DNA of 64,000 bases from Candidatus Hydrogenedentota bacterium (lineage in GTDB: Bacteria; Hydrogenedentota; Hydrogenedentia; Hydrogenedentales; JAEUWI01), in assembly GCA_016791475.1 (NCBI GenBank), contig JAEUWI010000020.1, forward strand, positions 1 through 64,000, read 5' to 3'. Numbering within the stretch: the first letter of the stretch is position 1; each line of letters opens with the position of its first letter. A program made the translations under genes and the position numbers. The notes beneath the pieces were generated by a model. The model saw nothing but the letters and a program-made list of their open reading frames with translations. It searched no databases and was not told where the DNA came from. Shown one piece after another: positions 7,859-53,339 of the stretch.

Positions 7859-8920
7859 TTGAGTCGCTTGTGCTGGCTGCTGCTTTTCATTAGCGTTCCA
7901 GCTTTCGCCGATGATCGTCCCTGGCCCGCGCTGCCTTCGGAGAACGCTTCAGCCGAGCTGCCCGCGCAGGAATGGGCGTTCCAGCCCGGTCCCCGCACGA
8001 TCACGGCCTATGTCTATTACTCCGGCGGAGCACTGGCAAACGTCAACACCGAGACGGGGCTCTTTCTGAGCCTCCACAACTGGGGCGGCACGAACGCCAT
8101 CGGCGCGCCCGATCCGCTGGTGCTGGCCGAGCGCTACAATGTCGTGGCGATCTGTGTGGACTATCTCCAGAGCGGGAAATACGACGAAGCCACCCAGCCG
8201 CCCTACGATTTTGGCTATCTTCAAGCGCTGGATGCGCTGCGCGCACTCTACTGGGTGCGCAAGGGGTTGATCGACGGCGGCCATGCCTATCACGATGGTC
8301 GGACCTATGCCGCGGGCGGCTCGGGAGGCGGCAACGTTAGTCACATGGCCAACAAGCTGGCGCCCCGTACCTTCGCGGCGATTGTGGATTGCTCGGGCAT
8401 GGCGAAGTTGAGTTATGACATCGCCTTTGGTCGTCCGGGGGGCTCCTATCTCGACGCGGGCTACAGCCGCAACCGGAAGAGTCCGGACTATCTCTCGAAG
8501 GATGCGCGCGACCTTCGCGACATTGGCTTTCCTTCACACCTCACGCAGATGGTGGCGCTGGGCAACGAGGCGCGGGTCTTTGTCGTCCACGGTGCGCGGG
8601 ACAAGGTGTGTCCCACGGCGGACAAGCAGCGGCTGGTGCGGAACATGACGCGGGCGGGCTTGAAGATCGACGCACGCTTCATTGGCGAAAAGGATCTCGA
8701 CGGCGAGGTGTTCAAGGACACGGGCCACAGCGTGGGGGACCGCACCCGGATCTTGCAGCACGTAGCGGATGCCGCGTTGCTGCCGGGAAGTCCCGATGCC
8801 GCCGTGCGAAAGGGAGCCAGCGATTTCGAGCGGCGCGAGGTGATTCGCTACGCAACGAAGAACGGCGCGTGGGAAATAGATTTCGCGGCGGGGTATCCCG
8901 TGGGACGCTTTGTTCCGTAG
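7859..8920 (+). CDS. Secreted alpha/beta hydrolase (DUF2920-type)
   Basis: A 353-aa protein with an N-terminal signal peptide (LLLFISVPAFA, cleavage near residue 17). It has a nucleophile elbow GGSGGG (Ser155), acid Asp248 in HGARDKV and His290 in DTGHS, giving a complete hydrolase triad in the order and spacing of DUF2920-like proteins. TTG at 7859 is chosen because GGAG lies seven bases upstream and it begins the signal peptide. No in-frame ATG is better placed, and the frame upstream runs through the repeat array. The TAG stop lies inside the outer inverted repeat of a palindromic element. Confidence 0.72.
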   Translation: MSRLCWLLLFISVPAFADDRPWPALPSENASAELPAQEWAFQPGPRTITAYVYYSGGALANVNTETGLFLSLHNWGGTNAIGAPDPLVLAERYNVVAICVDYLQSGKYDEATQPPYDFGYLQALDALRALYWVRKGLIDGGHAYHDGRTYAAGGSGGGNVSHMANKLAPRTFAAIVDCSGMAKLSYDIAFGRPGGSYLDAGYSRNRKSPDYLSKDARDLRDIGFPSHLTQMVALGNEARVFVVHGARDKVCPTADKQRLVRNMTRAGLKIDARFIGEKDLDGEVFKDTGHSVGDRTRILQHVADAALLPGSPDAAVRKGASDFERREVIRYATKNGAWEIDFAAGYPVGRFVP

Positions 8921-9150
8921 GGACAGCGTCGCCCCGAGTCTGAATGTAGCGAATCGTACCGCTGGTGCACAATTTCGCCCGCGTAGGGCGAAAATCACTT
9001 CCACTGGCGAGGCTGTCCTGTCGTCAGCGAGGGGGACGGGGATTTTCAGCGCTGACATTGCGTCGCGAAAGATTCTGATTTCTAAGAGTAGCTTACGCGA
9101 GGCTGAGAGGTGCGTTGGCAGTGCCAAGCCACGACGTCATACGACAGGAC
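8915..9150. repeat. Palindromic intergenic element, copy 1, left part (interrupted by the IS)
   Basis: The outer arm (8915-8936) is a perfect 22-nt inverted match to 10826-10847. The inner arm GGCGAGGCTGTCCTGTCGT (9006-9024) is inverted at 9141-9150, where the match breaks off; the missing half of that arm reappears at 10748 beyond the IS. The rejoined element would be about 336 bp. Copies at 38909 and 53045 share the inner-arm consensus. No gene was seen in it. Confidence 0.8.
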
Positions 9151-9305
9151 ATCCATGATAGGTTTTTGTCAAGCGACGAATGGGAGATTCGTCTCCGCTG
9201 GGCTTCATACCTGGGTTTGTATGCTATTCTAGACTTGCCTGCCCGGAGGATACGGCAACGCTGGCGAGCGACCGGAGCGCCGCAGCAGGCGGGTTATACG
9301 GATGA

Positions 9306-9340
9306 GGGCGGTTCGGCGTTGTCGTTCCGCCCTATTTTTT
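9306..9340 (+). terminator. Terminator-like hairpin in the long end of the IS
   Basis: GGGCGG...CCGCCC around a 14-nt loop is followed by TATTTTTT on the plus strand. It would stop transcription entering the element from the left, or end an unrecognised plus-strand RNA beginning around 9230. The GC-rich stretch 9238-9290 just before it also has pairing potential. Confidence 0.5.
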
Positions 9341-9439
9341 CAATGTCATCTGGCAACCCTCTAAAGCGTTAAACGCACAGTATGGTCGAGCGCACCTTGC
9401 TTGTTACCTCATTGGGCCAACGGGGATCGATGGGATCAA

Positions 9440-9600
9440 CGTGACCAGACATCCATTTGCAGCATCCGAGCGCCGGAGCGCCTTCGCCGAAGTTTGAGTT
9501 TGGGTAAACCCGCCGGCCTCCAAACAGCCCCAAGGGGTATCGTGGAAGCTCCACTTGCCCAGTCCTGTCGACGGGAGGACCGGCGGAAAAAAAGTGCGCG
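9440..9600 (-). ncRNA. Candidate bridge RNA of the IS110-family element
   Basis: On the recombinase strand, just after its stop, CCGCCGGTCCTCC (9586-9574) pairs with GGAGGCCGGCGG (9521-9510), a 12-bp stem with one bulge. It closes an internal loop with an inner hairpin GTGGAGCTTCCAC (9554-9542). The 5' loop strand holds CGACAGGAC (9570-9562), complementary to one insertion flank. The 3' strand holds GGGGCTGT (9531-9524), identical to the other flank plus core. A second loop around hairpin 9486-9467 has TCAAAC (9497-9492), complementary to the element's left end, and ATGGATGT (9456-9449), identical to its right end plus core. This two-loop guide layout is that described for IS621 bridge RNAs. 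Ends of the RNA are estimates. Confidence 0.65.
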
Positions 9601-9610
9601 GATAGGCGGT

Positions 9611-10648
9611 TCAGGCCCTGGTAAACATTGTGAATTCCTTTTGGGTCTTGTCGACGCACATCAGATAAGCCACCAGTTTTCGCGCGACAGCCAGCGTGGC
9701 CTGGTTGCTGTTCGCGCCCTCGGCCAGCGCCTTGTCGTGGGCCTCCTTGAGTTGAGGATTGAAAGTCGGGCCCTTCTTGGCCGCTTCGATGAGCACCCAC
9801 TGAATGTGGGGATTGCGTTGCTTGGACAGGGGGCCGCGTGTACTCTTGCCCGCAGACTCGCGCAGGGCGCTGCACAACCCGCAGTAGCTGACCGCCTTCT
9901 TAACCGAGGAGAAGCGCCAGGGATCCCCGATTTCCAGGGCCCACGTCAGCGCGGTTATCGGGCCAACCCCGCGAATGCTCTGGAGACGAGTCACACGTTC
10001 GGAAAGCAGTGTGTGCTTCTCCAGCTCTCGCACAATCATCCGCTGGTTCTGTTCGAAGGCTTCCACGCTGCCCCGCGCCAGCATTAGCAGGTTCTTCACC
10101 GACGCCGGTGTGTCTTGCAAGTTGTCCATCAGGTGTGTAAAGTAACGCTTCTGGTGCAGTTTGTCGCTGTCATACTCCTCGCCCACTTCCATGAGAAAGC
10201 CGCCCAGCCGGTTCTTGAAGCGCGTGGACTCGCACTTGAGCAGGTTGCGGTACCGCAACGCACGGCGCAGTTCGCGCAGCGCGCGGGGGAGCATAAAACA
10301 CTCCGGGAAGAAATTGGCCTGCAGCAGGCTGGCCAGAGCACGCGCATCCATCCGGTCGTTCTTCTTCTTGCCCGCCCCAATCGCCTTCAGCTTATGTGGA
10401 GAGCCAACTTTAACCGCGCACCCCAGTGACTCCAGGTAATCATAAATCCAGGCAGTGAACATCGTGGCCTCCATCCCAAACTCCCGCTGGCCGCGGAAGC
10501 TGCTGCGAAGACCTTTGACCCAATCGCCAATCTCTGTCCGGTTGGCATTTATACGGCCTTCAGCGACTCTTTCGCCACACGCATTTATAACACAGTAAGA
10601 GATGGTTTTCTTGTGGACATCCATACCCACGGCGTAGTACTTTCGCAT
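9611..10648 (-). CDS. IS110-family recombinase (transposase)
   Basis: A complete 345-aa DEDD recombinase. The N-terminal RuvC-like part has Asp10 (GMDVHK), Glu60 (GMEAT), and Asp98 and Asp101 (NDRMDA). The C-terminal Tnp_20 domain starts near residue 222 (SIRGVGPITA) and carries the candidate catalytic serine Ser264 in ESAGKSTRG. Length and residue spacing match active IS110 members such as IS621. The ATG at 10648 has AAGGAG seven bases upstream, and no frameshift is seen, so the element looks functional. It acts on DNA guided by a bridge RNA. Confidence 0.92.
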   Translation of the reverse strand: MRKYYAVGMDVHKKTISYCVINACGERVAEGRINANRTEIGDWVKGLRSSFRGQREFGMEATMFTAWIYDYLESLGCAVKVGSPHKLKAIGAGKKKNDRMDARALASLLQANFFPECFMLPRALRELRRALRYRNLLKCESTRFKNRLGGFLMEVGEEYDSDKLHQKRYFTHLMDNLQDTPASVKNLLMLARGSVEAFEQNQRMIVRELEKHTLLSERVTRLQSIRGVGPITALTWALEIGDPWRFSSVKKAVSYCGLCSALRESAGKSTRGPLSKQRNPHIQWVLIEAAKKGPTFNPQLKEAHDKALAEGANSNQATLAVARKLVAYLMCVDKTQKEFTMFTRA

Positions 10649-10664
10649 GAGAGGTCTCCTTATA

Positions 10665-10709
10665 TGGGTTTAGAGTGAAGCGACTGTTGACCCGTTTATT
10701 CTAAACCCA
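10665..10709 (-). other. Hairpin in the upstream end of the IS, before the recombinase ribosome site
   Basis: TGGGTTTAGA (10665-10674) and TCTAAACCCA (10700-10709) are perfect 10-nt inverted repeats in the recombinase leader, three bases upstream of its AAGGAG. It may insulate the gene from outside transcription by trapping the ribosome site, a feature known for other IS leaders. This role is inferred. Confidence 0.5.
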
Positions 10710-10747
10710 GGGAGGCTTCTTCCAACAAGCCCCCTATACATTCAAAC

Positions 10748-10847
10748 AGCCCCGCCGGTTAACGCAAACTTTGCCCGACCAGAGAGTACCTTCGGGTACA
10801 GAGCCCGTTTCGCTTTTTGCTATCGCGGGGCGACGCTGTCCCTACGG
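10748..10847. repeat. Palindromic intergenic element, copy 1, right part
   Basis: It begins with the rest of the inner arm (AGCCCCGCC) and ends with the outer arm at 10826-10847, the perfect 22-nt inverse of 8915-8936. The small hairpin GTACCTTCGGGTAC (10787-10800) lies between. It lies about 36 bp beyond the stop of the leftward ArsR gene. Confidence 0.8.
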
Positions 10848-38908: not shown

Positions 38909-39037
38909 GGCGTGGCTGTCCCGTCGCGAGCGGAGGAGACGGAATCTATTATTTTCATTGGGGAAAACGACATATCGCCTGTCGGGATGTCGATGAAGAC
39001 GCAGGGTCTACCTCGCAAGCGACGGGACAGCCACGCC
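38909..39037. repeat. Palindromic intergenic element, copy 3
   Basis: GGCGTGGCTGTCCCGTCGC (38909-38927) and its perfect 19-nt inverse (39019-39037) flank about 90 bp. The arm matches the inner-arm consensus GGCGNGGCTGTCCNGTCG of copies at 8915 and 53045. No outer arm is evident here. It sits 78 bp after the addA stop within a 346-bp gap that holds no gene. Confidence 0.75.
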
Positions 39038-53044: not shown

Positions 53045-53339
53045 AGGGACAGCGTCGCCTCGTGACCGGAACACGCAAGAATCATTTCGCGCCCGTGGTG
53101 TGTCTTGATGGAGCAGAAAATGCTTCAACCGGCGGGGCTGTCCTGTTGTGAGCGAGGCGTGCCCGCACCTTAAAGGAGTTCTTGATATCCCGAGTCCGAT
53201 GGGGAAGTACTTCTGATTGCGACGCAGGCGCGACGCCACAGGACAGCCCCGCCAGTTCTGGTGCGTTTCGCCTGGTTTGAGGCAACGTACGAGCACTATG
53301 TATTTCTGCCATATCGAATCATGGGGCGACGCTGTCCCT
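53045..53339. repeat. Palindromic intergenic element, copy 2 (intact)
   Basis: The outer arm AGGGACAGCGTCGCCTCG (53045-53062) is inverted at 53322-53339 (16 of 18). The inner arm GGCGGGGCTGTCCTG (53131-53145) is perfectly inverted at 53239-53253. It fills the gap between the sialidase gene and the permease stop codon, which it abuts. Both inner arms match the target of the IS at 9151 and are unoccupied. No gene is seen in this gap. Confidence 0.82.

Follow-up and report, generated by a model that had tools for sequence, protein, structure and literature searches.

The locus at 9151-10747 (minus strand) of the window, i.e. the whole stretch of 64,000 nucleotides that was analysed, is almost certainly an IS110-family insertion sequence in an IS1111-type arrangement, whose 3' non-coding end encodes a guiding bridge RNA (seekRNA) used by a DEDD/Ser recombinase at a GT core. 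The sequence anatomy, a covarying RNA structure, guides that co-vary with flanks and ends, uninterrupted near-targets and a predicted protein fold were observed directly. In the proposed mechanism, the RNA would be expressed from the 3' end of the element and bound by the recombinase. The donor loop would pair, by its right then its left donor guide, with the joined element ends ATGGAT-GT-TTGA of a putative circular intermediate, and the recombinase would use the RNA for strand exchange at the common GT core.

The element and its recombinase

The element is 1,597 bp long with one GT core copy counted. Its ends were set by the guide matches, by the termini conserved across relatives (TTGAATG... 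and ...TATCATGGAT) and by other sites of its own genome that nearly match the joined flanks and are uninterrupted. In element orientation (minus strand, 10753 down to 9142), the locus reads GGGGCT-GT, then the left end TTGAATGTATAGG, the recombinase gene, the RNA, the right end CCTATCATGGAT and GT-CCTGTCG. The flanks contain the left target half GGGGCT (10748-10753, minus) and the right target half CCTGTCG (9142-9148, minus), and one GT core copy is found at each junction (left, 10746-10747; right, 9149-9150; both minus). The insertion is thus site-specific, with no target duplication beyond the common core dinucleotide, as is the case for the IS110 family. When joined, the flanks resemble uninterrupted paralogous sites such as L048 AACCGGCGGGGCTGTCCTGTCGT. 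Sub-terminal repeats are found 8 bp from the left end (ATAGG, 10733-10737, minus) and 7 bp from the right end (CCTAT, 9158-9162, minus). The motif TTGAC, located just inside the right sub-terminal repeat (about 9166-9172), is kept in the right ends of relatives; inspection of this element's ends by eye revealed no joined-end promoter with standard sigma-70 spacing. Elsewhere in the window are found the 3' end of a 23S rRNA gene (1-150), a 5S rRNA gene (274-390) and a match to the Acido-Lenti-1 RNA (2429-2482).

The recombinase gene (9611-10648, minus) is an intact frame of 345 aa. Its product has the domains expected of the family, an N-terminal DEDD RuvC-like domain (PF01548, E 3.6e-20) and a C-terminal Transposase_20 domain with the catalytic serine (PF02371, E 1.4e-18). 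It scores 183.9 bits against NCBIfam NF033542 'IS110 family RNA-guided transposase' (cut-off 140) and 25.6 bits, below cut-off, against NF052498. Residues D10, E60, D98, D101 and S265 are invariant in an alignment of 24 sequences. A PDB search with the profile of this alignment retrieved ISCro4 and IS621 chains at about 1e-34. For the predicted structure (pLDDT 91.7), the TM score normalised by query length is 0.72-0.75 against the synaptic complexes of IS621 and ISCro4 (18-19% identity); the match to TIGR-TasR is weaker (9mty, TM 0.57).

The element is single-copy in the host genome, where the only other match is distant (30%); the window's own guides are therefore backed by one insertion and by the relatives. 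No close copy was found in viral contigs, and the phage records searched yielded only distant recombinases (22-29% identity). The single copy and the 5-bp sub-terminal repeat, among the shortest of the clade, speak for a dead remnant that has kept its anatomy and lost its mobility, a state compatible with the bridge-RNA anatomy proposed here. This appears unlikely, though a serious alternative: the 345-aa frame retains all catalytic residues, and the donor and target guides are perfect.

The bridge RNA and its guides

The predicted RNA is structured, has one loop for the target and another for the donor, and starts 24 nt past the recombinase stop codon. Its predicted extent of about 145 nt (9443-9587, minus) is the span of the covariance model. 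The elements, 5' to 3', are: first stem strand, right target guide (RTG), hairpin, left target guide (LTG), second stem strand, right donor guide (RDG), short helix, left donor guide (LDG). The coordinates of these parts refer to the minus strand. The target loop is closed by a stem whose 5' strand CCGCCGGTCCTCC (9574-9586) pairs, with one bulged base, with the 3' strand GGAGGCCGGCGG (9510-9521). Within it lie the RTG with core CGACAGGAC (9562-9570), which is the same as plus-strand 9142-9150 and is complementary at 9/9 positions to GTCCTGTCG, the right target of the flank; the hairpin GTGGAGCTTCCAC (GTGGA-GCT-TCCAC, 9542-9554); and the LTG with core GGGGCTGT (9524-9531), identical at 8/8 positions to the left target (minus 10753-10746). 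In the donor loop, the RDG with core TCAAAC (9492-9497) is complementary at 6/6 positions to the left end GTTTGA (minus 10747-10742), a short helix is formed by 9486-9489 with 9463-9460 (5' and 3' strands, respectively), and the LDG with core ATGGATGT (9449-9456) is identical at 8/8 positions to the right end (minus 9156-9149). The stretches, stem, hairpin and guides of the first-pass annotation, which had proposed this reading from the letters only, are all correct to the base.

The guide matches might result from chance, or from patterns selected post hoc in a non-coding tail rich in GC, and the stem might be a terminator or another hairpin. The guide lengths were indeed set after the flanks had been viewed, and the 6-nt RDG by itself turns up in about 5% of shuffles; yet all four guides together were found in 0/100,000 dinucleotide-model shuffles of 9440-9610. 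The product of the single-guide shuffle frequencies, about 7e-11, is indicative only, because guide lengths were picked after the fact. Chance is also contradicted by the covariation of the structure and by the relatives, in which each guide fits the flanks of its own element much better than the flanks of other elements. Chance matching was ruled out by the shuffles, the covariation and the guide-flank permutations described below, and its probability is judged to be negligible.

Relatives were sought in the phylum of the window, in the order of the Bryobacteraceae genome that carries L003, and in plasmids. About twenty relatives' recombinases were found (46-57% identical). Every examined relative with enough downstream sequence has the same RNA scaffold, located a few tens to two hundred bases past the gene. 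The consensus fold of the RNA alignment (A1, 16 sequences), from which the span and pair counts given here are taken, reproduces the structure proposed in the first-pass annotation. Double-sided compensatory changes affect 21 of the 24 predicted base pairs, and the share of paired cells is 91.4%. Covariation scores 0.599, vs 0.205 for shuffles and 0.12-0.19 when partners are slid. In the target-loop closing stem (helix 1), 12/13 pairs are changed on both sides with 97.1% of cells paired. The target-loop hairpin (helix 3) has compensatory changes, and the short helix of the donor loop (helix 4, 90.6% of cells paired) has two pairs with such changes. The RDG gives little independent support, since it is short, nearly invariant in relatives (ACTCAA[A/T]C) and, in most of them, mismatched at one core base. 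The model R1 gives 132.8 bits to the window RNA, which is one of its training sequences. The RNA matches no Rfam 15 family at the gathering score, nor does any family match at E <= 1 over 9151-9620.

Guides were extracted by one scaffold rule anchored on both loops, and ends were recognised from the conserved termini; several right-flank values and the entries for L093 and L014 were read by eye from the sequence. For the left six bases, guide and own flank agree at 62/72 positions, vs 37.9 when permuted (12 elements); for the first four right bases, they also agree at 62/72 positions, vs 42.5 (18 elements). The observed agreement was reached by 0/50,000 permutations on either side, and permutations also failed to reach it when one element was kept per near-identical group. 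The match zone extends from -6 to -1 and from +1 to about +4 (9-10 of 10 elements), with far fewer matches outside, which fits the published guide lengths. Exact right guides (8/8) of quite different sequence are found in L068, L070, L079 and L077. The LDG co-varies with the right end: ATAGAT in L046 (an element of a Desulfocapsa plasmid), ATGAAT in L074 and L148. In L128, the core is GC and not GT, in guide and flank alike. Misfits to own flanks are seen for L014 (left 2/6), L093 (left 3/6, right 1/4) and L075 (right 1/4); the core of L093 is altered, and no intact left end was seen for L075 within the stretch that was searched. The first-pass annotation had named target-loop bases kept at different sites, and a stem lacking conservation, as outcomes that would tell against its two-loop RNA with target and donor guides. 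Instead, in relatives at other sites the target-loop bases differ and match their own flanks, the guide bases follow flanks and ends, and the stem is kept through compensatory changes.

Many transposons carry regulatory RNAs, and the RNA could be real but act only on the transposase gene (as an antisense or 3'-UTR RNA), the target being picked by the protein or by a DNA structure such as a palindrome; the target is palindromic here. For ISPpu9, regulation of the transposase by two small RNAs is reported (PMC8450116). A purely regulatory RNA would not have guides that follow the flanks on both sides or a donor guide that follows the right end, and the RNAs of IS621 and of IS1111-type elements are proven to guide (PMC11208160, PMC11187229). 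Regulation as the sole function is accordingly very improbable, and a guiding RNA is retained as the preferred reading.

L093 (1348-1440, 2845-2935) is full-length; its left flank is donor-like (ATGGATGT) and not target-like, and its right core is CT. From its sequence, it is probably an off-target or rearranged insertion. Three full copies in G272 (L069, L089, L093) and one element in G276 (L071) are 90-98% identical and lie at different sites. They have a common LTG and differing RTGs, and these differences suggest drift of a loosely read guide.

Some units consist of the RNA and the right end without a recombinase (L125, L145, L146, L129, L142, L135). Their homology to full elements sets in at the RTG or no more than a few bases away from the RNA. 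In L125, L145 and L146, a target-like left half is found 9-25 nt upstream. L129 and L142 share 96.8% identity over 309 bp and have unrelated flanks. These units either arose by decay or are non-autonomous derivatives. Since three of them lack the 5' stem strand, decay through internal deletion is no less likely than mobile solo RNAs.

The target and the host repeat

The target is the conserved arm of a palindromic repeat that occurs throughout the host genome (repeat copy numbers were obtained by pattern searches of the genome). With at most one mismatch, the target GGGGCTGTCCTGTCG is found at 19 other sites of the 7.7-Mb genome, all uninterrupted; with up to two mismatches, it is found at 100 places, vs 32 for a reversed control. 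Many of these sites are arranged two by two in inverted orientation, with a spacing of roughly 110-130 bp. In L048, the closest full repeat copy, the inverted repeats are nested, with AGGGACAGCGTCGCC as the outer arms and 28-nt inner arms that include the target. The element interrupts an inner arm of a repeat of this kind. The interrupted copy retains one outer inverted arm, GGGACAGCGTCGCCC (8920-8934, plus), the outer inverted arm of the other side (10828-10842, minus) and an inner arm, GAGGCTGTCCTGTCG (9009-9023, plus), which is an unused near-target with 1 mismatch; about 120-140 bp separate it from the point of insertion. Conservation of the site extends beyond the 15 guide-matched bases on both sides.

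These nested palindromic intergenic repeats (outer GGGACAGCGTCGCCC, inner GGGGCTGTCCTGTCG) form a degenerate family, found in the window at 8920-10842 and 53048-53338. A sister class consists of GTGGCTGTCCCGTCG pairs (e.g. window 38912-39034). Such pairs flank genes of Y1 transposases (RAYT-like) at C8:142465 and C21:35341; since this class lies beside RAYT-like genes, the host repeats look like REP-type repeats. That IS110 elements insert into REPs was known before (PMC1525189, PMC8450116, PMC11208160, PMC11187229).

Relationship to known systems

The element is a well-supported new example of a guide mechanism first described in 2024, the mechanism itself being already known. What is new is the clade, whose RNA is absent from Rfam, and the target, a conserved arm of a palindromic repeat. 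The analysis adds a clade of about twenty natural elements, diverse in sequence, whose target-pairing rules are directly legible (six left bases, about four right bases and the GT core). It provides new candidate programmable recombinases (345 aa, short RNAs), and a case in which this RNA-guided system is directed at a palindromic repeat of its host, in a lineage remote from the model bacteria.

Assignment to the IS1111-type branch, made in the first-pass annotation, holds for the arrangement of the RNA and fails for two other characters. As in IS1111, a long non-coding region with the RNA lies downstream of tnp, and the top-strand match is located 5' of the bottom-strand match. IS1111 is defined by a sub-terminal inverted repeat of usually 11-13 bp with extensions of 7 bp left and 3 bp right (7-17 bp for the repeat in Durrant et al.), whereas all 11 elements measured here have repeats of 5-9 bp with offsets of 8/7 bp. 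The IS1111 motif GL-P----S(t)G is replaced by GLCSALRESAG in the window and mostly by GL-S----SA in relatives, i.e. S-A instead of S-G. From the RNA position and the guide order, the clade would work like an IS1111-type system; strict IS1111 membership is not claimed. The clade combines a 3'-end RNA and a reversed guide order with sub-terminal repeats that are short and nearly symmetric, and its catalytic-finger motif is changed. It is conceivable, although doubtful, that the clade branches off as an intermediate between IS110 and IS1111 and also spawns the recombinase-less units of RNA and right end (e.g. L125, L145, L129/L142), which would be moved in trans as non-autonomous, self-addressed elements.

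The IS1111-type seekRNA elements (ISEc11, ISPa11, ISKpn4, ISPst6; PMC11187229) share with the present one an RNA downstream of tnp with the top-strand target match first, a DEDD recombinase of 330-350 aa, a sub-terminal inverted repeat and guides matching the flanks. They differ from it in the repeat geometry and the motif given above; a further difference is that the ends and the RNA of the present element reveal a donor loop that carries both donor guides. With the bridge RNAs of IS621 and the IS110 group (PMC11208160), the RNA shares the two loops, the four guides, every one of which includes the core dinucleotide, and the division between top and bottom strands, and the recombinase shares the IS621 fold. 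In contrast, the RNA lies here in the 3' end and theirs in the 5' end, the guide order is reversed, the core is GT vs CT for IS621, and protein identity with IS621 is about 19%. The REP-targeting elements IS621, ISPpu9 and ISPpu10 also use a multicopy intergenic host palindrome as their site (PMC1525189, PMC8450116 and references of PMC11187229); here that palindrome is related to sequences beside RAYT genes. Host lineage and repeat are different, and one insertion was seen here vs many uninterrupted sites. TIGR-Tas RNA-guided nucleases (PMC12045711) have a related C-terminal RNA-binding part, as seen in the NF052498 and 9mty matches given above; unlike them, the present protein has IS110 recombinases as its best matches and lies in an element with complete ends and a bridge RNA.
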